Assembly: GCA_000720995.1 (NCBI GenBank)
Contig: JOEL01000009.1
Coordinates: 1-64,000 of the forward strand
Length of the DNA stretch: 64,000 nt
Reading direction: 5' to 3'
Origin: Streptomyces celluloflavus
GTDB lineage: Bacteria > Actinomycetota > Actinomycetes > Streptomycetales > Streptomycetaceae
In this document: positions 38,061-58,427 of the stretch, one piece after another
Layout: each line of letters starts with the position of its first letter
Position numbering within the stretch: position 1 is the first letter of the stretch
Translations under genes and position numbers: made by a program
The notes under the pieces: model-generated
Seen by the model: only the letters and a program-made list of their open reading frames with translations
Database searches by the model: none
Told to the model about the DNA's origin: nothing

Positions 38061-38171
38061 AAGGACCAGGGACCTACCTCCGAGAGGTAGACCCCATCCG
38101 ACCTGCACGTTTGACAGATCACCTAACGCAAAGCGTGCAATTGCTCACACGTTGAAGCGGAACTCCACCAC
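38061..38171 (-). repeat. Extra copy of the ychF 3' end and terminator (left end of island)
   Basis: Bases 38145-38171 read VVEFRFNV-stop on the minus strand, the exact C-terminus of YchF. Two changes are synonymous (TTC for TTT, CGC for CGG) and the stop is TGA instead of TAG. Going downstream the match continues with constant spacing to the region below the real ychF (38100-38121 equals 58356-58377 with 2 mismatches). It includes a terminator-like hairpin CTACCTC/GAGGTAG at 38074-38090. It is a direct repeat of 58317-58427. Confidence 0.8.
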
Positions 38172-38202
38172 GAGCCTTCTACCTGCGGAAATGCAGGCGC
38201 GT

Positions 38203-38225
38203 CCCAGCACCATCCCAGCACGGGA
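38203..38225. repeat. CCCAGCAC direct-repeat pair inside left island end
   Basis: CCCAGCACCATCCCAGCACGG at 38203-38223 matches 58239-58259 at 20 of 21 bases, and ATCCCAGCACGGGA recurs at 58302-58315. A small hairpin CCTGC/GCAGG at 38182-38197 precedes it. The layout resembles integrase arm-type sites of actinomycete elements. Confidence 0.6.
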
Positions 38226-38314
38226 TTCACGACAAAGTACAAGAGCGCTCGGCATCGCCAACGCTACACAACAGGGCTGGCATCCGGTCGAGGCTCGAGG
38301 GATTCATCTACCGC

Positions 38315-38608
38315 TCACAGCGGCCAGCAGACCGCCGGTGCAGTAGCGGCATCGAGCCCCAGACGGTCGACGCCGCCGCGCGAGACCGTCACCACGACAG
38401 GAACGGATACGCCTGTGAGCGCGGCGTGGTGCCGGTGAAGAGCGGCCACGTCGTACCGGTCGAGAGGCGACTGTTCGAGCCACTTGATGGAGTTATCGGG
38501 GCTCGGTCCGCACCAACGATGTCGATGTGGACGCCTCGTGAGTTTCCCGCCGGAGCGTCGGGGCGCCCCGAAGGCAGTATCCGGGCGGTCGCTCAGCTCA
38601 GTCGCCAA
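38315..38608 (-). CDS. Hypothetical protein or gene fragment
   Basis: A 97-residue frame with ATG at 38608. The C-terminal part (DNSIKWLEQSPLDRYDVAALHRHH, VVVTVSRGGVDRLGLD) has balanced composition and could be real protein. The first 30 residues look like chance. It lies between the island's left end and pglZ and may be a remnant. No family recognised. Confidence 0.3.
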   Translation of the reverse strand: MATELSDRPDTAFGAPRRSGGKLTRRPHRHRWCGPSPDNSIKWLEQSPLDRYDVAALHRHHAALTGVSVPVVVTVSRGGVDRLGLDAATAPAVCWPL

Positions 38609-38654
38609 TGAGCCCTGTCCAGCAGGTTCCGTGCAGGTGAGACCCGCAACGGGC

Positions 38655-41453
38655 CTACTCCCCGAGCCCGAACTGGGCCCTCAGCCATGCTGGGTTGAGC
38701 CTCAGCGTCTTGTTGTCGGGGAGGAGTTCGAGGACCTGGACTCCGTCCATGTTCAGGAGCTGGGTGAGGACGGCGGCGTAGCCGCGAGCCCGGGCCGGTG
38801 GCATGTCCGCGGCGGCGGCCACAGCCGTCAGAGGGAGGGTGTTGTTCTCGCAGAGCGCTGCAAGGGCCTGGCGGAGTCTTTCCGGGGCCTGTTTGCGAGG
38901 GAGGAGAGCAAGCTGGTCACTGAAAGCCGGGGAGGCGAAGAGGTCGTCCAGGAGCTGCTCCACCGGCGACTGAGCTTGCACGGACAGCAGTGTCCCCTTG
39001 GTCTCGGAGAGATGGGGAGACACCGCGATCTCGAACAGACCCGCGTCCTGTGGAGCGGGCTTCTTCGGGGTACGCCTGAACTTCGTCAGCTGTGTCGTCC
39101 CGGTCTCCGCAGACAGAGGTGCCGAGGTCGCGCGCAGGCGCGTCGTGTCCAGTTTCCACCAGTGCGGTTCGTACGTGTCCGTGAGTTGCCGCCACCCTGG
39201 TGGGATGTTCTCGGTGGCGCCGTCCGGCAGGTACGCGAGCACGGGGATCGTGAACTCGGCCGGGTGCACTCCCCCGTGATATCCCGCGGCACGGTTCGTG
39301 TAGCGGGTGTCGGCCGGCCACAGGGCGACGATGGGACCTCCGACCACGCGTGGGCCGGCTAGCACCGTCTCCTCCTCGCTGACCAGTGGTTCGGCGCCAC
39401 CGTCCGGGACGTCGCGGTAGCGGGCGTTGACGGCTTCGGGGGTGGGAACCTTCACGCCCCGGTGCTCCAGTACGTGCCCGTGGTCGCTGGTGATCAGTAC
39501 GGCCATGCCCCGTCGGCGAGCCTCGTCCAGGAGTGGAGTCAGGGCGTCGATGTCGTCGATCGTCCAGTCCCACTCGTCGAGGCGTTCGTCGTTCTTCAGG
39601 CTGTCGTCGACGGTGTTGAGCACAACCGCGAGGTGTGACGCGTCGTCGGCCAGCGCCGACTCCAGGTCGGGCCCGAAACGTCCACCGGTGCCGGCGGGGC
39701 GGAGGTCATCCTTATGGAAGACGGCAGCCTTCTGCCCCGACCACAACCGCAGGGACGGGAATACACGCTTCTCGGTCTTCTGGTCGCCGCGTTGCAGCTT
39801 GCCTGTAAGGAGACTGGTACGGCTGACGCCGGTGACGGTGGGCAGGGCGGCGGCCATCGCCTGGCGGGCGGGCGGCATCCCCTTCTCGCCGGTGGGGTCG
39901 TACTCGGTCCAGTTCGCCGCAAGTTCCTCGCCGAGCTGTCCCGCGAGCGCGGCGCTCATGCCGTCCACGACGAGCAGCATCAGCCGCCGCTGGGACTTCA
40001 CCACAGGCTTCGCGACCCGCTCAAGGAAGGTCTCGACCGTCAGCATCGAGCCGGGGGCGGTACCCGCTGTGGTCCACTCAACAACCTGCTCGGCGAAGGC
40101 CCGGTCCATGCGGTACCGCACCTTACGCACGTCAGCGGCGAGCCCATCGTAGGCACTGGACAGTGCGGACTCTGTGTCGCCGCCCGCCTCCAGGTGCTCC
40201 AACGCACGGTCGGCCCAGGAGAGTTCGGCGTTGTAGTGGGCCAGGGCGCCCGCGACGGTGTCCGGTGTCCATACGGGTTCGGTGGCCAGCCACTGCACCA
40301 AGCGCACAGCCATCCGGGCGCGGCCGATCCGGGTGCGGGCCGTCTCGGCGAGGTGGTGCGCCTGTACTGCGCGCAGCGCCGAACGGCAGGCGTCGAGATC
40401 GCGGCCGGCGATCGCCGTACCCACAGCGGCCAGGCGCGCTTCGAGTCCGGCGGGCAGGTACGGGCTGTGGCGTACGGCCTCGATTGCACCCAGATGTCCG
40501 GCGAGCCGTTCGGCGTCCGGGGTGATCTCGGCGAGGAGCTGTGCGTTGCGTGCGACGAGGTTCTCGGTAGATTCCCCGTAGCGCCGCATGGCCTCGTCGG
40601 TGAACTCGCGGCCGAGGATGTTCTCCGCTCGGCCGCGCGCCCGGAAGACTTCGGGGCCGGCCGGGGCGTGCTGCCACAGCGCGGCGGCGACGAGCCCGAA
40701 CGGCAGGGCGACGGACGGCTCGTCGTGCTCGGTGATCGATAGGAGGGCGTCGGCGGTCGGGCCGGCCTGGTCCACCTCGGCGAGGAAGCACCGCAGTCCG
40801 GCCCGCTCTCCGTCGCGCAGCGCACGGTAGGCGCGCGGTCCTTCGGAGGGGGTGCGGCTCCACAGCAGCAGAGTGTCGATGTCGAGCTGGGCGTCCCCAT
40901 CGAGCAGCAGTCGCCGCCGTGCGAGGGCGGTGAGGGCGTGCGTACGGGACAGGACTTGCCGGTTGAGGCCGGGCCAGCCGCCCGCGGGGGCGGCTTCGAG
41001 GAGGGCCTCGGCCACCCCCCAGGTCTCGTCGCTGAGCCGTGGATCGATACCGGAGGCGGTGAAGGTCTCGCGGATGAGGTCCCAGTTGTCGACGTGCTGG
41101 ATGGCGTGCTGGTACGCGCGGACCAGGATGCCTGGGTCGAGTTCGGCGTCCTCCCGGTCGGTGAGCAGGACGAGCAGGGACGGGTCCTCTACTGAACCGG
41201 GGGCGTCGAGGTGACTGAGCGCCTCCTGGTAGACGGCGAGCACGGACGGCGCGGCGGCCACCCGTGCGCTCCGACCGCCGTTCCAGGGCAGGATCGCCTG
41301 CTCCTCCCACACGGGTGCCGAGCGCAGGAGCACCACCTGGCGAGTGTCTCCGTCCGGCTGCTGGGGGCCTTTGAGCAGCGCGCGCTGACCCGCAAGGTAG
41401 TTCGCGACGGCGGTGGGCGTGAGGCGGGCGACGCCCCGGCCGACCTGAGGCAT
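38655..41453 (-). CDS. pglZ: PglZ, BREX type 2 alkaline-phosphatase-fold protein
   Basis: A protein of 932 residues and last gene of the pglWXYZ operon. I chose ATG 41453 because it overlaps the pglY stop as TGATG and GGAAGGTGG lies upstream; an in-frame ATG at 41471 is possible. The N-terminal 450 residues are helical. The PglZ phosphatase-like domain has LLVVDGMSAA near 492-500 (metal-binding Asp), TVTGVSRTSLLTG and TSDHGHVLEHRG near 655 (metal-binding Asp/His). A C-terminal helical tail ends AQFGLGE. PglZ is the signature protein of all BREX systems; its biochemical role in defence is not settled. Confidence 0.93.
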   Translation of the reverse strand: MPQVGRGVARLTPTAVANYLAGQRALLKGPQQPDGDTRQVVLLRSAPVWEEQAILPWNGGRSARVAAAPSVLAVYQEALSHLDAPGSVEDPSLLVLLTDREDAELDPGILVRAYQHAIQHVDNWDLIRETFTASGIDPRLSDETWGVAEALLEAAPAGGWPGLNRQVLSRTHALTALARRRLLLDGDAQLDIDTLLLWSRTPSEGPRAYRALRDGERAGLRCFLAEVDQAGPTADALLSITEHDEPSVALPFGLVAAALWQHAPAGPEVFRARGRAENILGREFTDEAMRRYGESTENLVARNAQLLAEITPDAERLAGHLGAIEAVRHSPYLPAGLEARLAAVGTAIAGRDLDACRSALRAVQAHHLAETARTRIGRARMAVRLVQWLATEPVWTPDTVAGALAHYNAELSWADRALEHLEAGGDTESALSSAYDGLAADVRKVRYRMDRAFAEQVVEWTTAGTAPGSMLTVETFLERVAKPVVKSQRRLMLLVVDGMSAALAGQLGEELAANWTEYDPTGEKGMPPARQAMAAALPTVTGVSRTSLLTGKLQRGDQKTEKRVFPSLRLWSGQKAAVFHKDDLRPAGTGGRFGPDLESALADDASHLAVVLNTVDDSLKNDERLDEWDWTIDDIDALTPLLDEARRRGMAVLITSDHGHVLEHRGVKVPTPEAVNARYRDVPDGGAEPLVSEEETVLAGPRVVGGPIVALWPADTRYTNRAAGYHGGVHPAEFTIPVLAYLPDGATENIPPGWRQLTDTYEPHWWKLDTTRLRATSAPLSAETGTTQLTKFRRTPKKPAPQDAGLFEIAVSPHLSETKGTLLSVQAQSPVEQLLDDLFASPAFSDQLALLPRKQAPERLRQALAALCENNTLPLTAVAAAADMPPARARGYAAVLTQLLNMDGVQVLELLPDNKTLRLNPAWLRAQFGLGE

Positions 41454-44400
41454 CAGCCGACCACCTTCCATGTGATCTCGATGGCCTTGCCGGGGTGCGC
41501 GGCCGCCACCTGGTGCAGGGCCTGCTCGACCTCGGCAGCGCTGCCCTGCACAGAGCCCGTACGGGCAGTGGTCTCGACCTTGGGGTGCGATGTCTCGGTG
41601 GTCAGCGGCACCTGGTCCGGGGTGGGCGAGGCCGGCGTGGCGGCCGGTGGTTCGGTCCGCTGCTGCTGTTGCCGCTGGACGGCCAGGGCCTGGGTGATCG
41701 CCCGCTGGGCACGCGGCAGGGAGTCCTGCAGCTTCCTGCTGAACTGGTCCTCGCGCGCGTCCTCCTGGAGAGTGGTAAGGGCGTCCATGCCCGTGCCGAG
41801 TTCAAGCACGTCCCAGGAGGCGTTCTGCAGGGCGGACGCCACCGCCTCCGCCGTGGTGACGGATGAGCCGAGCCGTTCGGGCGTCAGCTCGCCGAGATCG
41901 AACGCGGAGAGGGCCTCAACAACCCGCTTGGCCCCGCGGCCCTTGGCGGCGAGCAGCTCCTCAAGCAGAACGAGCCCGCGGCGTGCGGTGTGCAGGCGGC
42001 CGGTGACGGCGGTGTCGTCGAGGCCGAGGAAGTCCACTCGCCGCTCCAGCACGGCCACCAGCTCGCGATTGGACGGCAAGAGCTTGTCGACGTGGGTACG
42101 CACCAGATCGGCGAAGGAGTTGACAATCCGCCCGCGCAGCTGCACGGGGGCCTTCTTGCCGAAGATCTTCTCGTAGCGCGCGCGGGCCGTCTCCCAGTCC
42201 GGCTCGGAGGGCAGGGGCTGACGGCGCAATGCCCAGCCGTCCTTGATCTCGCTCAGCTTGAGGTCGGCGACTGGGGCCCCGCCGATGCCCCACACACGGT
42301 CCTCCATCTCACCGTACGCGGCCGCGACGAGCTGCTGGATGTGGGTCGGAAGCCCCATCCGCTGCGGTTCGTTCATCCACGCGGTCAGTGAGCCGTAGCC
42401 GATGTCTGCGTCCGGGTCGTTCTTCGCGAGCCGGTTGAAGTGCTCGCGCCAGTACGCGCCGAGGGTGAAGTAGCTCTCCCCCATCGTGCCGAGCTTGAGC
42501 GGCTGTGCGACCGTCTCCATCAGCTCCCGGTCGCCGCGCGGCACGACCTCTGCCTTGCCCTCCTTGGCACGGGCGGCCTCGCTGATGTACCCCAGGACGG
42601 TACGCGCCTGGGCGGGCGTGACGGCCTGCGTGCCGAGGTCAGGGTGGGCCGGGTATTGCCAGGCGAGCATCTTGCCCGCGATGTCGCGGATCGCATCGCA
42701 CGGGGCGGCGCTCAGTCCAAGGGCGGGCGTGGTCGCACCCGGCTTGGTGGCGATGTGGTCCGAGAAGTCGTCGAGGACGTCCCCCTCCTGCTTCTTCGCC
42801 AGGCCGTACGCCTGCTTGAAGGCGGCGACGACCCGGTCGCGGAGGGTTTCGGACTGCGTGGTGAGCAGCCCTCGTGCCCGCACGCGGTCGTCGGGGCCGA
42901 GGTGGGCGGCGAAACGGCTGTCGAAGTCGCTGCCGCTGTTCAGGATCCGCTTGATGACCACGTACCGGTTGAAGTCCGCGTACATCGTCGTCGTCATATG
43001 GGTGGGCACCCAGGCGAGGGAGTGCTGGACCTCGGGGTGCCGCTCCCAGAAGCTGTTCATCCGGTTCAGGTCCTCGCGCGGCCCGAACTCACCCTCGTCC
43101 CACGGGAGATCGACGACGAGACGCCAGGTCTCCGCGTCGGTGGGAGTGAGCGTGGAGTCGGGGGTCTCCTCCCGGTCGGCGATATTGGCGAAGACGACCT
43201 CGGTACGGCGCTTGCTGCCTCGCCACGTGAAGTCGAGCGTGTCGTACGTGTCGAAGCCGCCCTGCCCCTTGGCCGCGGTCAGTGCGAACTCCGAGCGCAG
43301 CAGCTCGACGGCGGCGTCGTGGCGGTAGCGGGGTTTGTCGAAGGCTTCGCGGCCGTTACGGATTACAGAGTCGATGTCCACACCGGTCAGTTCCAGGCGT
43401 ACGGTCATCGCCACGCCGTCGCCAGCGAGCTTGATCTCGGGGATCCGGCCCGCCCATTCCTTCAACTTGTTGATCAGGGCGCGGATCTCGCCGCCGGGAA
43501 GGAGCGCCTTGATGGTGCCGGCGTTGAGGGCCAGGAGCCGCTTGACCGTCATGTTCTGGAAGGCGGGCGCGGCGGGCGCGAGAGCGGACAGGACGAGAGT
43601 CGACATCAGCCGGTCGTCGTCGGTGAACTGCCCGAGCCGGCGTGCGAGATCATCGTCCTCAATGGCGGCCGGGTCCTGCTGGTACGTCACGACCTGCTCC
43701 ACCGCGACCCGGTGGTGGTCGAGTAGGTAGGGGCGCATTCTGTTGCGGTACAGCCGGTCAGCCTCATCGAACACGGCACGCAGCTCGTCGGTGAACGGCT
43801 TGTCGCCGCCGCCCGAGATCAGCGCGTAGATGTCGCCGAGCGGCACCAACTGGCCCACGCGCAGCAGATTGCGCCGTGCGGCAAGGAGTTCGCCCATCAG
43901 CTTGAGGCCGGTGCGGGAGCGCTGAAGGGCCGAGGACAGATGGACGAGGGTGTCCATGAAGGCAGGCGAGAAGGGGTACGTGAAGCGGAACGCGGTCTCC
44001 GTGGCGCCCACGTTGTTCCCGTCGCCTCCAAGGAGTTCGTCCCAGAACTTGGCGTTGGTGGACTTCGCCTTCTTGAACGCCTCCCCGATCACCGCGTCCG
44101 CCTCGGTCGACAGCGGCCTGAGGAGGCGCGCGTGGGCGATCTGAGGAAGGTTGCGGTCCTCCAGGCTGATGCGGTCGAACCGGCCCGAGGCGAGCTCCAG
44201 GTTGTCGACGATGGCTCGCTGATAGCGGCCCCCGTCCTCAGCAGATCCGACCAGGTCGCGCAGGTCGCGCTGGCGGGCGATGAACGACACAACGGGGACG
44301 GCGCGGCGTTCGTCGCCGCCCTCCACCAGGTTCGTGATCTTCGCGGTCTCGCGGGACACGAACTCCGACTCGGAGATACGGGAGGCGAACCACAGGATCA

Positions 44401-45295
44401 GCTCGTCGAGGAAGAGCACGATCCCGTCGTAGTTGAGGCTCTTCGCATGCTGGGCGATCATCGAGAGGCCCCGGTCGAGGCTGATGAAGCCACCATCCTG
44501 CTCGACGGCGCGTTCCTCGTAACCGGGCAGCATTTTGGCAGCGTCCTGTGCGAGCCGGGCTCGCAGCTCGCTGGGGGTGGACGGGTCGGCGGGGTTGAAC
44601 TCCTGGCCGACCTCCAACTCATCGGCGGTCATCGCGTCGTTGAGCAGCTGCGTGGTCCAGGCGAAAGCAGCGCCGAACTCGCCCCACTCGCCGGTGGTTT
44701 CGGCGGGCGCGGCACCAGCCAGGAACTTGATCACATCCTCGTCGCCGAGCCGGTCCCGCATGGACTGCAGGTCGCGGAACATGGCATCGGTGCGGTAGAC
44801 CCGCGGGGTCGGCGCCCCGGGCTCCAACTCCTTGATCCGCTTGACGTATCCGCCGAGGATCCGCTGCTCCATCGACTTGGCGTCGAGCATGTGCACCGGC
44901 ACCATCAGGAACCGTCGGTCGCCGTCCTGCAGCCACCCGTTCTTCGCGAATACCGGGTCGAAGTCGGTCTTGCTGCGAGCTGCCGGAGCCTGGTTGAGCA
45001 GGGCGTGCAGTACGGCCATGAAGTGCGACTTACCCGCACCGAATGAGGCGTGCAGATACGCGGCCTTCGAGGAGTGGCTGTCCACCGCCGCCTTGATGAT
45101 GCCGAGGGCCTCGTTGAAGTGCTGCACGAGGTCGTCGGTGACGACGTAATCGGCCAGGGCCTTCTCGGCGCCCGCGGGGGTGGTGGCGTCGGCGAGCTGG
45201 AGGACGTAGTCGGAGCTGGACACCTCCGGATTGATGTTGATCAGCTCGCGGAGGAGGGGAGTGCCGAGGTTGCCGTTTGCGGGGTTCGCTGCCAT
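41453..45295 (-). CDS. pglY: PglY, BREX type 2 large P-loop ATPase (BrxC/DUF6079-like)
   Basis: A protein of about 1280 residues. I chose ATG 45295 (MAANPANGNLGTPLLREL) for its AGGGAC ribosome site; GTG 45313, overlapping the pglX stop as GTGA, is an alternative. Walker A is SFGAGKSHF near 85-93 and Walker B is GIVLFLDELILWF near 290-302. Long helical regions follow. The C-terminus has a Gln/Pro/Thr-rich linker (QRQQQQRTEPPAATPASPTP) before a small final domain ending ITWKVVG. In BREX type 2 PglY is the counterpart of BrxC and is needed for phage resistance. Confidence 0.93.
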   Translation of the reverse strand: MAANPANGNLGTPLLRELININPEVSSSDYVLQLADATTPAGAEKALADYVVTDDLVQHFNEALGIIKAAVDSHSSKAAYLHASFGAGKSHFMAVLHALLNQAPAARSKTDFDPVFAKNGWLQDGDRRFLMVPVHMLDAKSMEQRILGGYVKRIKELEPGAPTPRVYRTDAMFRDLQSMRDRLGDEDVIKFLAGAAPAETTGEWGEFGAAFAWTTQLLNDAMTADELEVGQEFNPADPSTPSELRARLAQDAAKMLPGYEERAVEQDGGFISLDRGLSMIAQHAKSLNYDGIVLFLDELILWFASRISESEFVSRETAKITNLVEGGDERRAVPVVSFIARQRDLRDLVGSAEDGGRYQRAIVDNLELASGRFDRISLEDRNLPQIAHARLLRPLSTEADAVIGEAFKKAKSTNAKFWDELLGGDGNNVGATETAFRFTYPFSPAFMDTLVHLSSALQRSRTGLKLMGELLAARRNLLRVGQLVPLGDIYALISGGGDKPFTDELRAVFDEADRLYRNRMRPYLLDHHRVAVEQVVTYQQDPAAIEDDDLARRLGQFTDDDRLMSTLVLSALAPAAPAFQNMTVKRLLALNAGTIKALLPGGEIRALINKLKEWAGRIPEIKLAGDGVAMTVRLELTGVDIDSVIRNGREAFDKPRYRHDAAVELLRSEFALTAAKGQGGFDTYDTLDFTWRGSKRRTEVVFANIADREETPDSTLTPTDAETWRLVVDLPWDEGEFGPREDLNRMNSFWERHPEVQHSLAWVPTHMTTTMYADFNRYVVIKRILNSGSDFDSRFAAHLGPDDRVRARGLLTTQSETLRDRVVAAFKQAYGLAKKQEGDVLDDFSDHIATKPGATTPALGLSAAPCDAIRDIAGKMLAWQYPAHPDLGTQAVTPAQARTVLGYISEAARAKEGKAEVVPRGDRELMETVAQPLKLGTMGESYFTLGAYWREHFNRLAKNDPDADIGYGSLTAWMNEPQRMGLPTHIQQLVAAAYGEMEDRVWGIGGAPVADLKLSEIKDGWALRRQPLPSEPDWETARARYEKIFGKKAPVQLRGRIVNSFADLVRTHVDKLLPSNRELVAVLERRVDFLGLDDTAVTGRLHTARRGLVLLEELLAAKGRGAKRVVEALSAFDLGELTPERLGSSVTTAEAVASALQNASWDVLELGTGMDALTTLQEDAREDQFSRKLQDSLPRAQRAITQALAVQRQQQQRTEPPAATPASPTPDQVPLTTETSHPKVETTARTGSVQGSAAEVEQALHQVAAAHPGKAIEITWKVVG

Positions 45296-48945: not shown

Positions 48946-51900
48946 GTGGTGACTCCTTCGAGGGCGTTCGGTTCGTGCATACGGGTCCAGGACTTGGGAA
49001 TGGGGATCCACTCCTGCTGGGCCTCGAGGTACGGGACGGGGCGTCCGGCGAGTTTCGGGACGGCTGTCTCGTCGTCCTGGGCGACAAGGACCCACAGGGG
49101 GCGACCGCCGCGCCTGGCCAGTGCGGTCAGCCGGTCGAGGACGTGCATGCCGTCATAGCGGGCGAAGACGGCGGCGTCGGTGAGCAGGACGGGGGCCTGG
49201 CCGGTGGCGCCGGCCTCGATTCCCGCTGCCAACCCCCCTTCCAGCACCCCCTGCACGGTCTGCCACACCGCCCCCACCAGATTCGTGAACCCCGTCGGTC
49301 GTTGCCCAGCCGGGAGTACGTCCGCCTTGACGACGACCTCCCACTTCGGCATCGCGCGCCCGGGCGTGAGGTCGCCCCGCAGCCCCTTCAGGAACAACTC
49401 GGTCACCGACACCGCCCGCACTCCGTACTGGCGACGCAGCTCCCGTCCGACCGCCGGCGCAATCCGCGCGCGCACGGTAAGGACCCGGAGCCCGTCGCGC
49501 CGCGCGGCGCGTGCCAGTTGCGCATCGGCCCGCGCCGCGGTCGACTCCTGGTCCAGCGGACCGCCGGTGCCGGAGCCGCTGCCGCTAAGGGCCGAGGTGT
49601 GCGACAGGACCGCCTCGAACTTCCGAGGCAGGAACGCCTTCTTGTCGGCCGCGTACTTGAGGTCGAAGCCCGCCTCGCGCAGCGCCTTGAGCAGCTCTTC
49701 GGGCCTGTCCTTCATCCCGGCGAGCGCTGCCAAAGCGGGGAAGCGGTCATTGACCCGCTCAAGGACCTCGCGCAGGGGCAACCCTGGCTGCTGCTGCTCG
49801 GGCAGGCCCGGCAGGACCCGGACCAGACCCGCTTGGCTGAGGCGCAGGGCTCGGACAAGGCCCAGGTCACGTGGGTAGATCTCGATCCTGGGCGACAGCG
49901 CGGCGTTCTGGCTCGCCTGGGCGGCGAGATTGGCGACGCGCCGGTCGTCCCAGGAGAACTCACCCTCGGGCAGCCTCACCGCGCTCAGCTCGGCGAGGAC
50001 CGTGCTCGAACCCGGCAGGGAGTCCCGCCCCGCGAGCCGGTCGGCGGCGTCGCCGAGCCGCTTCACATAGCTCAGCAGTGCGGGCGCGGCGGGAGTGTCG
50101 GGGCCGTCGGCTTCGTTGTCCGGGTCGACCTCCAGTGCGAGGAAACCAGCGCGGCGTACCGGATCGGTCACCTTGTACGGGGCGAAGTGCTGGAAAGCCC
50201 TGTCGTCGACGGGAAGTTGCTGCTCGCGTTCGATCAGCGCTCGGAGCACGGCGAAGGCAGCGGCCCGTCGTATGTCCGGGTCACCCAGGGAGTAGCCGCG
50301 GGTGCCGAGCAGCCAGCCGGCCAGCGCGTCCACGGAGGCGACCCGGCCGAGCGCGCGGAGCTGCTCCAGAACCGCAGCTCGCACCTCCAGCAGGCCCTCA
50401 TCCTCCGCCCAGAGCTTGCGGAGCTTCTTCAACTCTCTCGAGAACGTCGACTGGTCGGCGAACCCGACGGCCTGCGTGGCATCCTTATGCAGCGGCCACA
50501 CCGGAAGGTCCGGCAGCGTCCCGTCGGCGCCGGGCGCGCGCAGCAGGTGCACGGCCACCTCGTGCAGCCGCTTCGTCCGGCCGGCGGCAGGCGGGACGAT
50601 CCGGGCGAGGAGGTGGTCGATGTCCTGGACGTCGGGGACCACCCCGACGATGCGCTCGAGCTGCGCCTCGAGCAGCGTCCTCTCCTCCGGCGACGACTGC
50701 GGCTCCGGCTCGGGTCGCGAGCCGAGGCGAGCACGCCACTCCTTCTGCCGTCGCTGGATCTCCGTACGCGTCCGGGCACCGAGCCCCGGCCGGTTGATGA
50801 ACGTACGGCTGGCCCGGTCGAGGAACTCACCGACCGTGGTGAGCTTCATGTCCCGCAGGATCGAGTCCGCGGACGGCGTCAAGCCCGCACGCACCAGAGG
50901 AGTCTCACGGGTGGCGACCTCGGCCAGCTGGTCGCGCAGATCGGCGGTGTCGGCTTCACCGTCCGGTGCGGAGCTCTGCCCTTGCCGCCTCAGCGACTCG
51001 TGTCCGGCGCTTGCGGCAAGCCGCTGCGCATCCTGGAACACCCGCTGCCAGGACGTGCGCATGTACCGCAGGTCCTTGTGACGCTGCTTCGCATCCCTGT
51101 TCAACGCCTTGCGGAAGAACTCGGTAAGCCCGTCTCGCAGTTCGTCCTCGAAGCCTTCCGAAGCGATCGTCGGGTACGGCCAATCCTTCGGGTCCGTCAT
51201 CCGCGGGGTGACGGACCCGTCGCCCCACTGCGGGAGCTCGTTCGACGCCATCTGGTGCAGTGTCACGGCGAGCGCGTACCGCTCCGCGGCGTCGTCGTAC
51301 AGGTTCCGCATGACCGTGCCAACGAACGGGTCGAGATAGCCGGAGGTGCCCGCGCCGGTCTCGCGGACCGAGACGGCAGCCAGTGAGAAGTCGAGGAGCA
51401 GCGCCTGCCTGGTGCCGTTGGGGCGGATCCGGATCGCGATGTTGTCCGGTTTGATGTCGCGATGCCAGACGCTCTCGCCCTCCAGGTAGTAGAGGGCATT
51501 GAACAGGTTGTCGCTGTAGCGCTCCAGGTCGTCCATGGTGAGGCGGCCCTGGCGTCCCAGTACGCGCGCCATGGTCTCGTCCCGCGCGGTGCGGTCGTCG
51601 CGCTTGTCGTCCGCCTCGGCCTTGAAGTTGCCGACGTACTCGGTGGCCAGGACCGTACGCCCGCCCACGGTGAACGTGCCGGGTACCAGCAGTCGGATGA
51701 TGCTCGAATCCCGCAGTCGGCCCAGGGTCTCCGCCTCGCGCTGCAACGCCTCCGACTTGTCATCGTCGAGCGCCACCTTAAGCACGGCGAACGCGTCGTT
51801 CTTCCCCTGCTGTTCGTCGAGTACGAGGAGGGCGCGCGCCGTCGAGCCGGTACCGAGGCGGCGACGCACCCGCCAACGCCTCTGCAGCAGCGTGCCGGCC

Positions 51901-53456
51901 GGGACCTCCAGCGGGTCGAGGTCGTCGGCGGGCTCCTCCTGCCGCAGCTGTTCGTCGTCCGGTACGGCGGCGGGCCGGAGGTCCTCCTCGACCTCCGCCA
52001 GCATTTCCAGGAAGTCGCCCACCGCGTCGAGCCGCCGGTCCGGCTGCTGGGCGGTGGCGGCGTCGATCAGGTCGTCCAGGAACGGTGGGATGCCGTCCTC
52101 GACCGCCGACGGGGCGAGCCGCTCGCCGCTCTCCGCGCGGGCCTGAAGCTCCGCGCGGGTCGCGGCGGGAGCGCTGCCGGTGGTGAGCAGATAGGCGAGC
52201 GTGCCGATGCCGTACACGTCCATGCGCGCCGGATCGGCCTTCGGGGCGGTCAGCTCCGGTGCCAGGTAAGGGTCCGAGGCGTCGTCGACGCTCCCGTCCG
52301 ACACCGTGGACGGCGCCAGGGACACTCCGCTGGAGGTGACCGTTCGCGAGGCCAGCTGCCAGTCGGAGACTTGCATCACGGGCCGCTGCCAGCGCTCCTC
52401 CTCGCTCAGCTCACGCCCTGCGCCGCCCTTGTGGCGGGGGATGACATGGATCGAGCGTGGTGTGAGGGCACGGTGGTAGAGCCGCTTGGCGTGCGCGTAC
52501 TTGATCGCCTCGGCGATCTGGCGGACGAGCGCGAGCCGGTCCTCCAGGTTCAGCTTCCCGCCCCACCGGTCGAGGAACTCGTCCAGGTGCAGCCGCTCCG
52601 GGTGGTGGTCGAAGGTGAGCGCCGGGCCCGCTTCATGGTCGGAGGGGTAGTAGTCCCGGATGCGCACCACACCAGGGTGGTGGATCCGCTTCAGCGTGTC
52701 GGCCTCCCGCCTCGCCGCCTCGACCAGTGCCTTGCGCGCCTCGCTGCTCGAATTGCGGGGCCGCAGGTGGACCCGTACCCGCACGGTCTCGGAGAGCTGC
52801 TCGTGTCTGCCCGCATAATCGGCCCAGGTGGCTCCCGTGTCAAAGGGCCGCTTGTCCAGGATGAACGGGCCGACCTTCGCCTCCCTGACCACCTGCTGGA
52901 TACCGACCTGGGCGAGCGCCCTGCCGATGTCGGCACTGCCCTGGGACGAGATCCTGAACCGGTCCTCACGAGGCGGAAGCTGAAGCTCCGCGAGGAGGGC
53001 GGGGATGCCGTTGTAGATGTGGGCGTTCAGCTCGTGCGGCGGCAGCGCCAGGTCGAGGCCGTCCTCGGTGAAGCACACACCCTCGGTGATGTACACCTTC
53101 GCGCCGTACCTGCGCAGCAGAGAAGCCAGTTCCTTGGACTTCTGGTTGGTGAGGCGCAGTGGATCGCCGAGACCCTTCCCGTATCCGCGTCGGTTCCCCG
53201 GCGAGATCTGCACCCACTGACCGCCACGCCGTTCCACCCGGCCGTGCAGACTCTTCAGCTCGATCATGTGCACGCCACCCGGCGTCACGACCAGGAGGTC
53301 GACCTCACGAACGTGACCCGTCTGGCTGACGAAGGTGAAGTTCGACCACGCTCGCCATGGACCGTCGTCCGGCAGAGGTGTGAGGATTCTCTCAAGGGCC
53401 GCCTGCTCATGCGGGTACTCGGAAGGAGCGACGGCCGTCCAGCGACCCTTCTTCAT
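48942..53456 (-). CDS. pglW: PglW, BREX type 2 serine/threonine kinase with NERD domain
   Basis: A protein of 1504 residues and first gene of the operon. I chose ATG 53456 (MKKGRW) over GTG 53480, with GGAGAG 10 bp upstream. It has an N-terminal NERD nuclease-like domain (about 20-150, REVDLLVVTPGGVHMIELKS) and a first kinase-like domain (about 210-480) whose catalytic loop reads YHRALTPRSIHV. That loop lacks the HRD aspartate and so marks a pseudokinase. A second kinase domain (about 530-830) has a GTGSTA glycine loop, VLKV lysine, HRDIKPDN and LLDFSLA, all intact. A helix-hairpin-helix-like region follows (about 880-930, MKLTTVGEFLDRA ... RPGLGARTRTEI), then a long C-terminal part. Confidence 0.94.
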   Translation of the reverse strand: MKKGRWTAVAPSEYPHEQAALERILTPLPDDGPWRAWSNFTFVSQTGHVREVDLLVVTPGGVHMIELKSLHGRVERRGGQWVQISPGNRRGYGKGLGDPLRLTNQKSKELASLLRRYGAKVYITEGVCFTEDGLDLALPPHELNAHIYNGIPALLAELQLPPREDRFRISSQGSADIGRALAQVGIQQVVREAKVGPFILDKRPFDTGATWADYAGRHEQLSETVRVRVHLRPRNSSSEARKALVEAARREADTLKRIHHPGVVRIRDYYPSDHEAGPALTFDHHPERLHLDEFLDRWGGKLNLEDRLALVRQIAEAIKYAHAKRLYHRALTPRSIHVIPRHKGGAGRELSEEERWQRPVMQVSDWQLASRTVTSSGVSLAPSTVSDGSVDDASDPYLAPELTAPKADPARMDVYGIGTLAYLLTTGSAPAATRAELQARAESGERLAPSAVEDGIPPFLDDLIDAATAQQPDRRLDAVGDFLEMLAEVEEDLRPAAVPDDEQLRQEEPADDLDPLEVPAGTLLQRRWRVRRRLGTGSTARALLVLDEQQGKNDAFAVLKVALDDDKSEALQREAETLGRLRDSSIIRLLVPGTFTVGGRTVLATEYVGNFKAEADDKRDDRTARDETMARVLGRQGRLTMDDLERYSDNLFNALYYLEGESVWHRDIKPDNIAIRIRPNGTRQALLLDFSLAAVSVRETGAGTSGYLDPFVGTVMRNLYDDAAERYALAVTLHQMASNELPQWGDGSVTPRMTDPKDWPYPTIASEGFEDELRDGLTEFFRKALNRDAKQRHKDLRYMRTSWQRVFQDAQRLAASAGHESLRRQGQSSAPDGEADTADLRDQLAEVATRETPLVRAGLTPSADSILRDMKLTTVGEFLDRASRTFINRPGLGARTRTEIQRRQKEWRARLGSRPEPEPQSSPEERTLLEAQLERIVGVVPDVQDIDHLLARIVPPAAGRTKRLHEVAVHLLRAPGADGTLPDLPVWPLHKDATQAVGFADQSTFSRELKKLRKLWAEDEGLLEVRAAVLEQLRALGRVASVDALAGWLLGTRGYSLGDPDIRRAAAFAVLRALIEREQQLPVDDRAFQHFAPYKVTDPVRRAGFLALEVDPDNEADGPDTPAAPALLSYVKRLGDAADRLAGRDSLPGSSTVLAELSAVRLPEGEFSWDDRRVANLAAQASQNAALSPRIEIYPRDLGLVRALRLSQAGLVRVLPGLPEQQQPGLPLREVLERVNDRFPALAALAGMKDRPEELLKALREAGFDLKYAADKKAFLPRKFEAVLSHTSALSGSGSGTGGPLDQESTAARADAQLARAARRDGLRVLTVRARIAPAVGRELRRQYGVRAVSVTELFLKGLRGDLTPGRAMPKWEVVVKADVLPAGQRPTGFTNLVGAVWQTVQGVLEGGLAAGIEAGATGQAPVLLTDAAVFARYDGMHVLDRLTALARRGGRPLWVLVAQDDETAVPKLAGRPVPYLEAQQEWIPIPKSWTRMHEPNALEGVTT

Positions 53457-53701
53457 AAGCCTGACTCTCCGATCCCGCACGCCCCGCCGTCAGGGCCGGC
53501 CTCGGTGGGCGATGAACGGTTGCACCGTGTAGCTCGTGTCCGGCATCCCGACAGCCCACCCCGTTCGATTGTACGGGCGCGATCACCACCCCCCGCCCTT
53601 TCCCCTGACCCCGCACACGGGCCTTTCGGCCCTGCGACCGCGGTACCGAAGTCCCTCGCGCACACCGACTCCCGGACAGCCGGAGGGTCAGGTTTGCGAG
53701 G
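53457..53701. promoter_or_regulatory. Divergent promoter region between pglW and brxD
   Basis: These 245 bases separate the two divergent halves of the defence locus and should hold both promoters. I could not assign -10/-35 boxes with confidence. Confidence 0.45.
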
Positions 53702-55024
53702 ATGGCGCCTGTGAATGACGTACGTGGTCAGGTCAGCGCCGTACGGCGGCGAGGCGTCGTGGACGCACTGCGGCGGGGAGCCGTGCCCGAGCAGGGGCTC
53801 GATCTGCTCGCGACTGGCCTCGACCGGTTCACCCTCGCCTTGGACGAGGAGCTGGCAACCGTCGCGGGCGGCGGCTCCGTCTTCAAAGCGGTGCGCGGCG
53901 AGTACGGCTCCGGCAAGACGTTCTTCACCCGGTGGCTCGCCGAGCGGGGCAAGGCCCGCGGGTTCGCCGTCTGTGAGATCCAGGTGTCGGAGAACGAGAC
54001 GCCGCTGCACAAGCTCGAAACCGTCTACCGGCGGCTCATCGAGCGGCTCACCACCTCGGCCTTCCCGCCCAGCGCGCTTCAGCAGGTCGTCGACGGCTGG
54101 TTCTACGCACTGGAGGAGGACGCCCTCGCCGACGGTGTCGCCGAGGACGCGCTCGCCGACGCCGTGGACCGTTTGATGTCGGCACGGCTCGCCGAGGTCT
54201 CCCGGCATGCACCGGCCTTCGCCGCCGCGCTGCGCGGCTACCGGCAGGCGCTCGAGGCCGGCGACGATACGTCGGCCGCCGCCGTCCTCGCCTGGCTCGG
54301 CGGGCAGCCGCACGTGTCCGCCACGGCGCGCAAGGCGGCCGGGGTGCGTGGTGACCTCGACCACTTCGGGGCCCTCGGGTTCCTCCAGGGACTCCTCATC
54401 GTCCTACGTGACACCGGTCACGCCGGCCTCGTCGTCGTTCTTGACGAGGTGGAGACGCTGCAGCGGGTCCGCTCCGACGCCCGCGACAAGGCTCTCAACG
54501 CGCTGCGCCAGCTCATCGACGAGGTGCACTCCGGCCGGTTCCCCGGCCTCTATCTGGTGATCACCGGCACCCCGGCCTTCTACGACGGGCCGCAGGGCGT
54601 GCAGCGGCTCGCCCCCCTCGCACAGCGGCTCGCCACCGACTTCTCGACCGACCCGCGCTTCGACAACCCGCGCGCCGTACAGATCCGGCTGCCGGGCTTC
54701 ACCGGGGAGCGCCTCGTCCAGCTCGGGCTGAAGGTCCGGGACCTGTACGCCGCCGGAGCAGGCGATCCGGTACGTATCCGGGAGGTGGCCGACGAGGCGT
54801 ACATCGACGACCTCGCCAAGGCCGTCGGCGGGCACCTGGGCAGGAAGGTCGGCGTCGCCCCGCGAATCTTCCTGAAGAAGCTCGTCGGGGACGTCCTCGA
54901 CCGAATCGACCAGTTTGAGGAGTTCGACCCACGGGTCCACTACCAACTCACCGTTTCCAGGAATGAGTTGACCGATGTGGAACGTAACGCGGCGGCCGCC
55001 GACGACATCGGCCTGGAGCTGTGA
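53702..55024 (+). CDS. brxD: BrxD, BREX type 2 ATP-binding protein
   Basis: A P-loop protein of 440 residues. Walker A is GEYGSGKT (near 66-73), Walker B is GLVVVLDEVETLQR (near 240-252), and sensor-like VITGTPAFYDG follows. The beginning, VRRRGVVDALRRGAVPEQGLDLL, is typical of BrxD (DUF2791). GTG 53711, with GAGGATGG upstream, is an alternative start. The stop overlaps the helicase start (TGATG). BrxD and BrxHI occur together in BREX type 2 and are needed for the full system. Confidence 0.92.
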   Translation: MAPVNDVRGQVSAVRRRGVVDALRRGAVPEQGLDLLATGLDRFTLALDEELATVAGGGSVFKAVRGEYGSGKTFFTRWLAERGKARGFAVCEIQVSENETPLHKLETVYRRLIERLTTSAFPPSALQQVVDGWFYALEEDALADGVAEDALADAVDRLMSARLAEVSRHAPAFAAALRGYRQALEAGDDTSAAAVLAWLGGQPHVSATARKAAGVRGDLDHFGALGFLQGLLIVLRDTGHAGLVVVLDEVETLQRVRSDARDKALNALRQLIDEVHSGRFPGLYLVITGTPAFYDGPQGVQRLAPLAQRLATDFSTDPRFDNPRAVQIRLPGFTGERLVQLGLKVRDLYAAGAGDPVRIREVADEAYIDDLAKAVGGHLGRKVGVAPRIFLKKLVGDVLDRIDQFEEFDPRVHYQLTVSRNELTDVERNAAAADDIGLEL

Positions 55025-57162
55025 TGGCATCGGACCGGGCGGAGCGTCCAGATCCAGTGGATCGCCTGCATCCCGTACTCCTGCACCACGTCGTCAACAC
55101 CCTCGGCTGGCCCGACCTGCGCCCCCTACAGAAGGCCGCGATCGACCCGCTGATGGACGGCGAGGACGCCGTGCTGCTCGCCCCCACCGCGGGCGGCAAG
55201 ACCGAGGCGGCCTCCTTCCCGCTGCTCGCGGCCATGGAAAACAGCGACTGGCAGGGCACCTCGGTGCTCTACCTCGCCCCCCTCAAAGCACTCCTCAACA
55301 ACCTCGAACCGCGCCTCGAGACCTACGCGGGATGGCTCGGCCGTACGGCGGGGTTGTGGCACGGCGATACCAGGGAATCCGCCCGCAAACGGATGCGGGT
55401 CGAAGGCCCTGACATTCTCCTGACCACCCCCGAATCTCTCGAAGCGCAGCTCATCAGCGAGAAGACCGACCACAAGCACATGCTCGGCGGGGTGCGGGCT
55501 GTGGTCGTCGACGAGGTGCACGCCTTCGCCTCGGACGACCGTGGCTGGCACCTGCTCGCCGTGCTCGAACGCCTCGAGCGCCTCGCGAGCCGGCGCATCC
55601 AGCGCATCGGCCTGTCCGCCACCGTCGGCAACCCCGAAGACCTGCTGCACTGGCTGCAAGGGGCACGACCGCACGAGCGCGCCGGCCGCGTCGTCGCACC
55701 CGGTGTACAGCTCACAGCTCCCGAGGGAAGCCCCCCACCGCCTGGCGACATCGAACTCGACTATGTGGGCTCTCTCGATAATGCAGCCAAGCTCATCTCG
55801 CTCCTCCACGGCGGCGAAAAGCGTCTCGTCTTCTGCGACTCCCGCGCTCAGGTCGAGGAGCTCGGCGAGAAGCTGCGCATCCGCGGCGTGACGACGTACC
55901 TCTCTCACTCCTCCCTCTCCCTCGACGAGCGGCGCCGCTCCGAAGAGGCTTTCGCCGAGGCCCGCGGTTGCGTGATCGTCTCCACCTCGACCCTCGAACT
56001 CGGGATCGATGTCGGCGACTTGGATCGCGTCATCCAGATCGGCGCCCCTGACACTGTCGCCGCCTTCCTGCAGCGCCTGGGCCGCACAGGACGGCGCGCC
56101 GGAACCATACGCAACGCGCTCTTTCTCGCCACCGAGGAACCCACCCTCCTCAAAGCCGCGGCACTGCTCCTGCTGTGGGGCCGCCACTGGGTCGAGCCCG
56201 TCGTCCCGCCGCCGCAGCCGCGTCACCTCGTAGCCCAGCAGATTCTCGCGGCCGCCCTGCAGCAGCACACGCTCGGCGATCGAACCTGGTGCGAGGAGTG
56301 GAACGGTCTCGCACCTTTCGACAAGAGCGCGACACCGATCATGAAGTACCTGATCGGCGAAGGCTTCCTCGAAAGTGACGAGGGGCTGCTCTTCATCGGC
56401 CCTCATGCCGAGAAGCACTTCGGCCGCCGCCACTTTATGGCCCTCACCGCGGCCTTCACCGCCCCGCCCCAGTTCACCGTCTACTTCGGCCGCAAGGATC
56501 TCGGCACCATCGACCCTCAACTCCTCCTCGAACAGCGTGAAGGGCCGCGCCTGTTGCTCCTAGGTGGACGCAGCTGGCAAGTCGGGCATATTGACTTCGG
56601 TCGCAGGCGCACCTTCGTCGAACCCGCCGACGGCGGTGGCCGCGCCCGCTGGGATAGCTACGGGCTCAGCGGCCTATCCTTCCCGCTCACCCGGGCCATG
56701 CGTGACGTACTACTCGGAGCGGACCCACCCGCCCGCCTCACCCGGCGTGCACAAGCACGCCTCGCCGAACTCCGCGAGAACCGAGCCTCGCACGTCACCA
56801 CGCGTGGGACGCTCCTACGCCGCGAGGGCCACAAGCTCGAGTGGTGGACCTGGGCCGGCTTCCGCGCCAACGCCACCCTCATCGCATCCCTCGGGGCCCT
56901 TGCCGACCCCGTACAACAACCCGACGACGAGCGGATCCGTCTCAATGCGGCAACGACACCGCAGAGTTGGCAGGCAACCCGCACCGACCTCGCCGACCAC
57001 CTGGTCCTGCCTGAGGTCAACCCCCGTGCCGTACAGGGCCTGAAGTTCTCGGCCGCCCTCCCCGAGCGCCTCGCCGCACGCACTGTGGCCGCTCGCCTGG
57101 CGGACTTCGACGGCGCCCGGTCCGTCCTCGACGAGGCCGTGCGCTGGGAGACACGGCAATAA
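55024..57162 (+). CDS. brxHI: BrxHI, Lhr-like superfamily II helicase of BREX type 2
   Basis: A helicase of 712 residues. ATG 55024 overlaps the brxD stop as TGATG; GTG 55021 is possible. Motif I is APTAGGKTEA, motif Ia is YLAPLKALLNN, DEVH box VVVDEVHAF is near 160, and motif III is LSATVGNPEDL. Motif VI is QRLGRTGRR. These place it with Lhr/BrxHI helicases. A C-terminal winged-helix or beta region follows (QFTVYFGRKDLG, RSWQVGHIDFGRR). It probably moves along or unwinds DNA in the defence complex. Confidence 0.93.
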   Translation: MASDRAERPDPVDRLHPVLLHHVVNTLGWPDLRPLQKAAIDPLMDGEDAVLLAPTAGGKTEAASFPLLAAMENSDWQGTSVLYLAPLKALLNNLEPRLETYAGWLGRTAGLWHGDTRESARKRMRVEGPDILLTTPESLEAQLISEKTDHKHMLGGVRAVVVDEVHAFASDDRGWHLLAVLERLERLASRRIQRIGLSATVGNPEDLLHWLQGARPHERAGRVVAPGVQLTAPEGSPPPPGDIELDYVGSLDNAAKLISLLHGGEKRLVFCDSRAQVEELGEKLRIRGVTTYLSHSSLSLDERRRSEEAFAEARGCVIVSTSTLELGIDVGDLDRVIQIGAPDTVAAFLQRLGRTGRRAGTIRNALFLATEEPTLLKAAALLLLWGRHWVEPVVPPPQPRHLVAQQILAAALQQHTLGDRTWCEEWNGLAPFDKSATPIMKYLIGEGFLESDEGLLFIGPHAEKHFGRRHFMALTAAFTAPPQFTVYFGRKDLGTIDPQLLLEQREGPRLLLLGGRSWQVGHIDFGRRRTFVEPADGGGRARWDSYGLSGLSFPLTRAMRDVLLGADPPARLTRRAQARLAELRENRASHVTTRGTLLRREGHKLEWWTWAGFRANATLIASLGALADPVQQPDDERIRLNAATTPQSWQATRTDLADHLVLPEVNPRAVQGLKFSAALPERLAARTVAARLADFDGARSVLDEAVRWETRQ

Positions 57163-57258
57163 CTGCCGAAGCCCTTGAGGGGAGTCCCCCCACGGGAGCC
57201 TCCAGCCCTGGGATCAACAAGGGCGTGCCCTACAGAACTTGTGTGCCACAATCACCCG

Positions 57259-57999
57259 GTGTTACTGACCTATGTCGACGAGTCGTACGACCGCCAGCGT
57301 TACTGGATGGTGGCTCTGGTCATCACCGAGCATCATGTGCGTCCGCTGCAGCGTGCTCTCGACGCGGTGGTCCGCAAGGCGGCGGAGTCATACCCAGTCG
57401 ATGAGTCCGCCGAACTCCACGGACACGCGCTGCTGCAGGCCAGGGAAGACTGGGCAGCCATGCGCACCAAGGAAGGTGACATGGTGCGCGCCCGGATCGG
57501 TGTCTACGGTGATGCACTCAAGGCGATCGGTGCGCATGACGTGCAGATCATCATCAGGGGTCTGAACCTGGAGCGGTACCCGTCTCGGGCGGAACTGCCC
57601 GTGTCGCCCCACCAGCGAGTCCTGAAGGATCTACTGAGCTGCGTCAACGATCAGGCGCGCGCCTACGGGCAGTGGACGCTGATCATCGCCGACGAGGTTG
57701 ACGGGGCGACCGAGCACCAGCAGCACTTCCGCCTCTACCAGCGCGACGGCATCGATGGGATAGGGGGCAACCGCCTCCCGGAGATCGTCGACACAATCCA
57801 CTTCGCCCCGTCCCGCGCGAGCCGCCTGCTCCAGGCCGCGGACCTCGTCGCCTACCTGTACCGCAGGCTTGCCTCCGGCCAGGACTCCAGCCCGCGGGCG
57901 CGGCAGACGAGTGAGCGACTGTGGTCATACGTGGCCGGTCGGGTGGTGCACGAAGAGTGTGAGCAGCATGGTCCAGGGGATGACCAGCAGGGCTCGTGA
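57259..57999 (+). CDS. DUF3800 protein (RNase H-like fold family)
   Basis: A protein of 246 residues from GTG 57259. It opens LLTYVDESYDRQRYW, the DUF3800 hallmark with an acidic DES near the N-terminus. Further conserved-looking acids are in SAELHGHAL, LIIADEVDG and the ending ASRLLQAADLVAYLYRR. The family is predicted to have an RNase H-like fold and occurs often with defence genes; its activity is not established. It sits 96 bp after brxHI on the same strand and is followed by a terminator, so it probably belongs to this transcript or island. Confidence 0.85.
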   Translation: MLLTYVDESYDRQRYWMVALVITEHHVRPLQRALDAVVRKAAESYPVDESAELHGHALLQAREDWAAMRTKEGDMVRARIGVYGDALKAIGAHDVQIIIRGLNLERYPSRAELPVSPHQRVLKDLLSCVNDQARAYGQWTLIIADEVDGATEHQQHFRLYQRDGIDGIGGNRLPEIVDTIHFAPSRASRLLQAADLVAYLYRRLASGQDSSPRARQTSERLWSYVAGRVVHEECEQHGPGDDQQGS

Positions 58000-58006
58000 T
58001 GCACAA

Positions 58007-58028
58007 AGGCCCCGCATACGCGGGGCCT
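58007..58028. terminator. Terminator hairpin after DUF3800 gene
   Basis: A perfect 9-bp inverted repeat AGGCCCCGC-ATAC-GCGGGGCCT, 8 bp after the DUF3800 stop codon. Confidence 0.75.
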
Positions 58029-58238
58029 GAGGCGAACCGGGCGTCGCTACTTGAAGACGTCCCTGCTGCGCAGGCTAGCACGGTCCACGGTCCGGCGGCA
58101 GTGTGCGTCTCCTCGGCTCTCGGGGTGTGCGGATCGGGACATATCGCGGCGCCCAACGCTAAGCGGACCAGGGACGGGAAGGCAGACGAGGCAAGCGCTA
58201 CGCCGGCTCAATCTCAGCACCCGGCAACCCATCCACGC

Positions 58239-58315
58239 CCCAGCACAATCCCAGCACGGTACGGATGACCAAGGATGACGACAGGTGACAAGCGGTCAGC
58301 TATCCCAGCACGGGA
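58239..58315. repeat. CCCAGCAC repeats inside right island end
   Basis: CCCAGCACAATCCCAGCACGG at 58239-58259 and ATCCCAGCACGGGA at 58302-58315. They are direct matches to the left-end repeats at 38203-38225. A weaker ATCTCAGCACCCGG lies at 58211-58224. Confidence 0.6.
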
Positions 58316-58316
58316 A

Positions 58317-58427
58317 AACACAAAGGGCCCGACCACGAAAGGTCGGACCCCACCTGACCTGCATGTTTGCCAGATCAGAGAAGTGGTGTTACGTCAGCCG
58401 CTACACGTTGAACCGAAACTCCACCAC
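58317..58427 (-). repeat. Right copy of the ychF 3' end and terminator repeat
   Basis: The partner of 38061-38171 at a constant offset of 20,256 bases. It comprises the last eight codons and stop of ychF (58401-58427) and the downstream hairpin. Confidence 0.8.
58325..58350 (-). terminator. ychF terminator hairpin
   Basis: GGGCCCGACC at 58325-58334 and GGTCGGACCC at 58341-58350 pair with one mismatch across a 6-nt loop, about 50 bp after the ychF stop. Confidence 0.65.

Follow-up and report, generated by a model that had tools for sequence, protein, structure and literature searches.

A complete BREX type 2 system in an integrase-less cassette at the 3′ end of ychF in Streptomyces, likely mobilised in trans

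The window, by which we mean the whole 64,000-nucleotide stretch of Streptomyces celluloflavus DNA analysed here, contains a 20.3-kb island between the 3′ end of ychF and a displaced copy of that end, followed by further, probably inserted DNA and by the native downstream neighbour of ychF, a GntR regulator gene. The features, in order of coordinates, are:

30505–31257, minus strand: GntR regulator (Pfam GntR/UTRA), native downstream neighbour of ychF and near ychF in relatives
31258–38060, no strand: stretch separating the older tail from the native neighbour, probably left over from one or more earlier insertions
38061–38148, minus strand: displaced older ychF tail with stop (38145–38147) and terminator, element-like, closest to the ychF-attached tail of genome G115
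38149–38162, minus strand: displaced core TTCCGCTTCAACGT, presumed 7-bp overlap CCGCTTC
38163–38278, minus strand: distal element end, including CTGCATTTCCGCAGGT (38181–38196); nhmmer E 4.2e-27 to a family-I end model built without this locus
38202–38221, minus strand: two arm-like repeats GTGCTGGGA, distal end
38655–41471, minus strand: pglZ (PADLOC PglZ, 771 bits)
41453–45313, minus strand: pglY, also called brxC (PADLOC BrxC-PglY, 1231 bits)
45310–49095, minus strand: pglX (PADLOC PglX, 1566 bits)
48942–53480, minus strand: pglW (PADLOC PglW, 1316 bits)
53702–55024, plus strand: brxD (PADLOC BrxD, E 5e-201)
55021–57162, plus strand: brxHI helicase (PADLOC BrxHI, 1044 bits)
57175–57999, plus strand: DUF3800 protein of 274 aa (Pfam DUF3800, E 4e-10)
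58249–58311, minus strand: arm-like repeats GTGCTGGGA (58303–58311 and 58249–58257), ychF-proximal end
58308–58400, minus strand: element-derived tail beyond the ychF stop, including the terminator (blastn matches in 32 of 103 other ychF tails; fold)
58401–59489, minus strand: ychF, the target gene, whose last 24 coding nucleotides hold the attachment core (Pfam YchF-GTPase_C, E 5e-39)
58405–58418, minus strand: core copy on ychF TTTCGGTTCAACGT, presumed 7-bp overlap TCGGTTC; the core was defined from integrase-bearing elements

BREX type 2 (Pgl) is defined by PglW, PglX, PglY, PglZ, BrxD and BrxHI together, and the six corresponding PADLOC models are matched nearly end to end. By its predicted products, the island is thus a complete BREX type 2 anti-phage system together with a DUF3800 gene, and the completeness claimed by the sequence-only reading holds. 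These seven genes fill positions 38655–57999 without an integrase ORF, and the longest gap between them is only 483 bp, so that the island has no room for a hidden integrase.

The last codons, stop and terminator of ychF are duplicated at both ends of a 20,256-bp segment. The two tail copies align with 72.8% identity over 125 columns (blastn, E 4.7e-9), and an ungapped comparison of left with right copy at offset 20,256 gives 69 identities in 111 positions across 38061–38171. The pattern for the YchF C-terminal codons, GTNGARTTYCGNTTYAAYGTNT, has exactly two sites in the 8.68-Mb genome; a third core-like match, C37:19491 with two mismatches, was set aside as chance, since neither tail nor arm repeats surround it. 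The direct repeats noticed from the letters alone, and their offset, are therefore real. Their description as about 110 bp with YchF codons stands for the presence of two copies with stop and terminator and has to be narrowed for the coding part, where true homology covers 8 codons (24 nt), upstream of which the left copy is element DNA. Over these codons both copies read VVEFRFNV and then a stop (TGA in the left copy, TAG in the right copy), with synonymous differences only, as had been proposed, and two of these differences fall within the likely 7-bp crossover, TCGGTTC on ychF and CCGCTTC in the left copy. The left terminator stem, described as changed and still paired, does fold, if less distinctly than the right one (−24.9 kcal/mol, z −3.9, for one terminator and −21.5 kcal/mol, z −2.0, for the other, with 8 of 200 shuffles equal). 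The left repeat is not part of another gene. Just inside both segment ends, and absent from the sequence-only reading, lie the GTGCTGGGA repeats, at 38202–38210 and 38213–38221 on one side and at 58249–58257 and 58303–58311 on the other.

Comparison across the genus shows that the 3′ end of ychF is an integration hot spot in Streptomyces, empty in some relatives and occupied by other defence genes or prophages in others. The tail pattern is present in 273 of 295 genus genomes and occurs twice in 25, including that of the window. In 17 of these 25 (window included), both copies lie on the same strand of one contig, 1.7–88 kb apart; among the 24 besides the window’s genome, 16 have this arrangement, 6 have the copies on different contigs and 2 have them megabases apart. 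The last two are G104 and G105, with matches on opposite strands in G105, possibly a second ychF copy or a distant rearrangement. The presumed 7-bp overlap is identical between copies in 12 of the 17 pairs. We fetched 97 loci, namely the 17 two-copy genomes and 80 of 248 single-match genomes, the latter chosen in the order listed while passing over short contigs (G082 is counted among the 80, its match being a displaced tail). The GntR gene is 0.9–18.4 kb from ychF in 47 of the 97, 27 kb away in the window and 96 kb away in G230, and is absent from the fetched stretch in the remaining 48. An empty site is seen in G241, where the GntR gene follows ychF by about 0.2 kb. The GntR genes most like that of the window (89%) among 49 loci belong to G036 and G294, at 2.9 and 4.0 kb from ychF, and neither genome is among the 90 with a PglZ match, in a table that does not name every genome searched. 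Several element families use the site, and insertions stack in tandem. The sequence-only reading had suggested a site-specific insertion into the ychF 3′ end and a hot spot for defence islands; the empty site, the displaced tail at the other end of the island, the different genes at the same place in relatives and the integrases found at the same core, some with broken frames, all agree with it.

The integrase-bearing elements define the attachment core. They have a distal integrase, then GTGCTG repeats, then the core GAACGTT-CCGCTTC-AACGT or a variant of it, with GCAGGT between repeats and core in 14 of 20 such elements. The elements of G007, G043, G072, G080, G137, G197 and G283 carry at their distal ends an integrase of one clade, hereafter clade A; its frame is broken in G007 and G072 and open in G043, as in the viral record L217, and the G137 core has a small insertion. 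The core has inverted arms around a 7-bp centre, the layout expected for a tyrosine-recombinase site, the position of the crossover within it being presumptive. The proximal end, joined to ychF, consists of stop, terminator and GTGCTG repeats, and a strict repeat pair within 238 bp or less is found in 27 of 97 ychF tails, against 0.0024 per window expected from the surrounding DNA. The arm word varies by element, being GTGCTGAC, GTGCTGGAT or GTGCTGGGAT. The word of the window’s island, GTGCTGGGAT, was seen in just two of the integrase-bearing ends, those of G093 and G039, whose integrases are both broken; most family-I ends (see below) carry the G093 and G039 word, GTGCTGGGA, and those of G228 and G279 carry GTGCTGGAT. 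A second tyrosine-integrase family, of about 380 aa and only 24–29% identical to clade A, lies on the minus strand about 135 bp after the ychF tail at L125, L128, L174, L177 and L178 (G155, G172, G064, G129 and G024) and marks another element type at the site. Tails with GGCGAAAGGCCGTCTGACC had been considered as the native ychF tail; many are element tails, as indicated by this second family (380 aa, minus strand, 135 bp away).

Most of 13 displaced tails tested resemble tails attached to ychF in other genomes. The displaced tail of G279 matches the attached tail of G172 at 93% over 148 nt, and the left copy of the window matches the G115 tail at 79% over 99 nt; among the 13, G255 has no match and G040 short matches only. 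Because displaced tails resemble tails attached elsewhere, the junction lies at the core. On this comparison, ychF in the window now bears the element’s own tail, and the left copy is the older one. The older tail is itself element-like, and the window therefore records at least two tandem insertions. The DNA between 31258 and 38060 is likely from an earlier insertion, whose far end was sought between 31.3 and 38.1 kb and not found. This stretch includes a BTAD-type regulator gene (32999–36193), close relatives of which sit elsewhere in other genomes. At L301 (G201:C656) the contig breaks off precisely at the core TTCCGCTTCAACGT, a hint that further insertions are concealed where assemblies break at the repeated attachment site.

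The distal boundary of the window’s island, before the core, reads GTGCTGGGATGGTGCTGGGACGCGCCTGCATTTCCGCAGGTAGAAGGCTCGTGGTGGAG. A model built from 13 other elements, with the window left out, matches this boundary with E 4e-27 and describes a family of ends, family I, matched at E <1e-15 in 17 genomes of the set and in all 32 records retrieved with an end pattern from about 85,000 species genomes. All 32 are from Streptomyces; they were found by part of the family-I end itself and are seen only to 8 kb, mostly without a whole element. After removal of 7 duplicate records, family I comprises about 42 genomes. At the proximal side, about 190 bp after the ychF stop match part or all of the corresponding stretch at 32 of 103 other loci, 16 of them over at least 150 bp of alignment. 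Elements seen from core to core have no integrase ORF between the core and the family-I end. An integrase ORF lies upstream on the same locus for 3 of 54 family-I end matches (E <1e-10, duplicates included); a core separates the two in G055 and G230, and none does in L193. At L193 (Streptomyces typhae, 4970–7587) a frame-broken clade-A integrase, in two overlapping ORFs 68–82% identical to the G093 and G007 integrases, lies 1.1 kb ahead of a truncated family-I end that lacks a core; it is possibly a decayed integrase-bearing relative of the cassettes. We found no intact integrase-bearing element with complete family-I ends, L193 being the nearest. As predicted from their ORFs, family-I cassettes have common ends, differing cargo and no integrase, save for L193 as one unclear exception.

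BREX is the family-I cargo in the window, and the other cassettes carry type I restriction genes (G102 and G163, and G119 as judged from its DNA identity with G102), DISARM-, Druantia- and Gabija-like proteins (G068), an AAA/DUF234 protein closely related to PDC-S27 (G040; G055 and G130 have homologues), PIN-domain proteins (G204 and G227) or a CHAT protein (G279). These assignments come from 14 elements with 82 listed proteins, of which 26 were scanned against PADLOC and 10 against Pfam; the 36-kb G228 element, probably compound, was left out. A PADLOC model is matched by 11 of the 26 scanned proteins and none by 15, at cut-offs of 1e-10 or 1e-20. A recurrent 472-aa gene of small cassettes, considered as a recombinase, encodes an AAA/DUF234 protein. 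A small gene pair for a PIN-domain protein and a partner, with lengths of about 135 and 142 aa, is seen repeatedly amid differing cargo (L079, L080, L085, L087 and L094) and is perhaps a stabilising toxin–antitoxin module. The cassettes of G100 and G216 have 1,127 nt in common at 97.0% identity, against 85.9% for their ychF genes, which points to recent transfer. Among the 15 cassette pairs with common cargo, 13 have cargo and ychF identities within 5 points of each other, so that recent transfer is clear for one pair only.

BREX at this site is found beyond the window. PglZ is present in 90 of 384 genus genomes and lies at most 30 kb downstream of ychF in seven, those of the window, G013, G103, G161, G283, G312 and G242, where about 0.3 such genomes are expected under random placement. 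That expectation was computed with 83 and 84 PglZ genes, and a recount of 88 near-full-length genes (>700 bits, window included) leaves it at about 0.3; ychF was placed in 63 of 69 genomes, with a further 18 left out for a ychF known to be far away or on another contig and 2 more for weak matches. Three PglZ lineages are present among the seven, 32–48% identical between and 81–90% within lineages. The elements of G013, G103 and G161 are closed by a core located 115 bp past brxHI.

The core used by the window’s island also serves prophages and other elements that encode a clade-A tyrosine integrase. The clade-A integrases at the ychF site are 48–96% identical to each other over long alignments, and their profile has matches with E values of 1e-60 or lower in 44 of the 323 genomes of the genus. 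The window’s genome is not among these matches; its best match to the clade is 26–32% identical (43% over 60 aa for a fragment). A core is nearby in 15 of 30 fetched integrase loci and absent nearby in the other 15, which include weaker relatives as well as G093, whose core lies farther off. Among 14 viral records with a clade-A integrase, 5 have the core, 1 lacks it and 8 end at the integrase stop codon; all 14 are phages, because a portal of SPP1 type (13 records) or HK97 type (1 record) is present. Before the core, L285 reads GCAGGTCAGAGCGTTGTGGTGGAAG and L292 GCAGGTCACAGCGTTGTGGTGGAAG, close to the family-I end. Named phage records contain nothing close to the clade-A integrase (best match 30%), and plasmid searches gave no match to the integrase or to the distal end of the window’s island.

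We consider it likely that the 20.3-kb BREX type 2 island, which has attachment ends of the tyrosine-integrase type and no integrase of its own, was inserted at the final codons of ychF, that it belongs to a Streptomyces cassette family and that it was moved in trans by integrases of temperate phages or other elements using the same site. The two copies, the empty site, the common ends, the differing cargo, the absent integrase and the integrase-bearing elements at the same core are all seen in the sequence; mobilisation in trans is likely, judging from sequence comparison. A helper integrase from a co-resident prophage or element would join cassette and ychF at the core, with the crossover in the 7 bp CCGCTTC beside the half-site AACGT and with the GTGCTGGGA repeats as integrase arm sites. 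The incoming cassette would supply a new YchF C-terminus, stop and terminator, so that ychF would stay intact, and the old tail would be displaced to the opposite end. Insertions would accumulate as the site is used again and again, which would explain the present 27-kb distance between ychF and its GntR neighbour in the window. Against mobilisation in trans, the two copies in the window disagree at two positions of the presumed 7-bp overlap; the insertion may therefore be old, such mismatches may be tolerated or the island may now be stranded. Also weighing against it are the failure to find an intact integrase-bearing element with complete family-I ends, the presence of the window’s arm word only at integrase-bearing ends with broken integrases, the missing core at half of the fetched integrase loci and the similar divergence of cargo and ychF in most cassette pairs. 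A broader proposal, which we hold tentatively and at slightly less than even chances, is that integrase-less immunity cassettes across the genus pirate the integrases of ychF-specific temperate phages by means of att-site copies, such that phage recombinases would spread anti-phage systems (BREX, restriction, DISARM-like, toxin–antitoxin) into a stacked defence hot spot at ychF.

The main rival is independent decay, in which each integrase-less island would be the leftover of a separate prophage or integrative element, a classic CIME (cis-mobilizable element), now immobile, with ends that are alike through related phages. Decaying integrases do occur at the ychF site (G016, G039, G055, G057 and G082), the broken clade-A integrase of L193 lies 1.1 kb before a truncated family-I end, the ends of the BREX islands in G013, G103 and G161 are also those of the G093 element, in which pieces of an integrase persist, and the cognate integrase is absent from the window’s genome. 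However, about 50 bp outside the arm repeats are common to family-I ends in about 42 genomes, while the integrase-bearing ends of the set, L193 apart, match the model in its inner part only, which points to a single founder without integrase, and the divergence of cargo (97.0%) from ychF (85.9%) in the G100/G216 pair is also at odds with separate leftovers. We regard independent decay as a minority reading, with perhaps a third of the weight at most.

Less probable again, and in our view rather unlikely, is that only an old landing was site-specific and that RecA-dependent homologous exchange has since swapped the contents by way of conserved sequence in ychF, in the cassette ends and on the GntR side. 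The 110–190-bp ends and the flanking core genes are conserved enough to recombine, and there are composite cassettes with only one half in common (G102 and G230, 3,034 nt). Cargo swaps by homologous recombination between conserved ends could contribute. Such exchange by itself fits poorly with the integrases, arm repeats and cores at the site, with the precise displacement at the core of tails of differing types, and with the tandem arrays of G055, G163 and G230, in which cores lie between units. Segmental duplication or chance similarity, unrelated to recombination, might be entertained for copies that are only about 73% identical, but is refuted by the occurrence of just two copies in 8.68 Mb, the same geometry in 16 of 24 other two-copy genomes, the distal end match at E 4e-27 and the empty site in a relative. 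Integrase-mediated insertion with mobilisation in trans, our preferred reading, would explain, in a form open to experiment, how defence systems as large as BREX arrive in new hosts although they encode no mobility genes; with candidate helper integrases and exact att sequences available, the idea is testable in laboratory strains. The stretch from ychF to the GntR gene in Streptomyces is a defined landing site at which to find defence systems, and the ychF site could serve Streptomyces genetics as a place for integration that leaves the target gene intact.

Among the open-licence papers listed we found no report of the ychF 3′ end as a Streptomyces integration site, and ychF is absent from the main text of a survey of defence systems in Actinobacteria (PMC10482375). 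Prophages of Streptococcus pneumoniae also have integrases that use the ychF neighbourhood; as described in PMC6375853 and PMC10383233, the pneumococcal site is upstream of ychF and alters its promoter, whereas the Streptomyces site is the 3′ coding end, which is regenerated. PAISt of Streptomyces turgidiscabies resembles the island in its tyrosine-recombinase insertion at the 3′ end of a protein gene, its modularity and its fixation by erosion of integrase and sites in homologues, but, according to PMC4057263, it has bacA (TTCATGAA) as target, encodes its own integrase and carries other cargo. The P2/P4 hot spots likewise hold swappable antiviral cargo tied to phage biology; as set out in PMC9122126, they lie inside phages or satellites, whereas here the whole cassette occupies the attachment site. 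The cargo in the window has all six core proteins of BREX type 2/Pgl and differs in being placed in an integrase-less, att-flanked cassette. An autonomous ICE, IME or prophage has its own integrase, and the window’s island has none. The nearest known kind is the CIME, which, like tandem accretion, is an established concept for ICEs and IMEs (PMC5704250). As in the CIMEs described there, att sites stand at both ends, integration genes are missing and elements stack in tandem at one target-gene end; in the window’s island attL and attR are kept, as core copies and element ends on both sides, and no integration or transfer genes are present. The ends of the window’s island, however, resemble those of prophages with clade-A integrases, with no relic inside the island, rather than those of a known ICE, and one conserved pair of ends here carries many cargoes, often anti-phage, across the genus.
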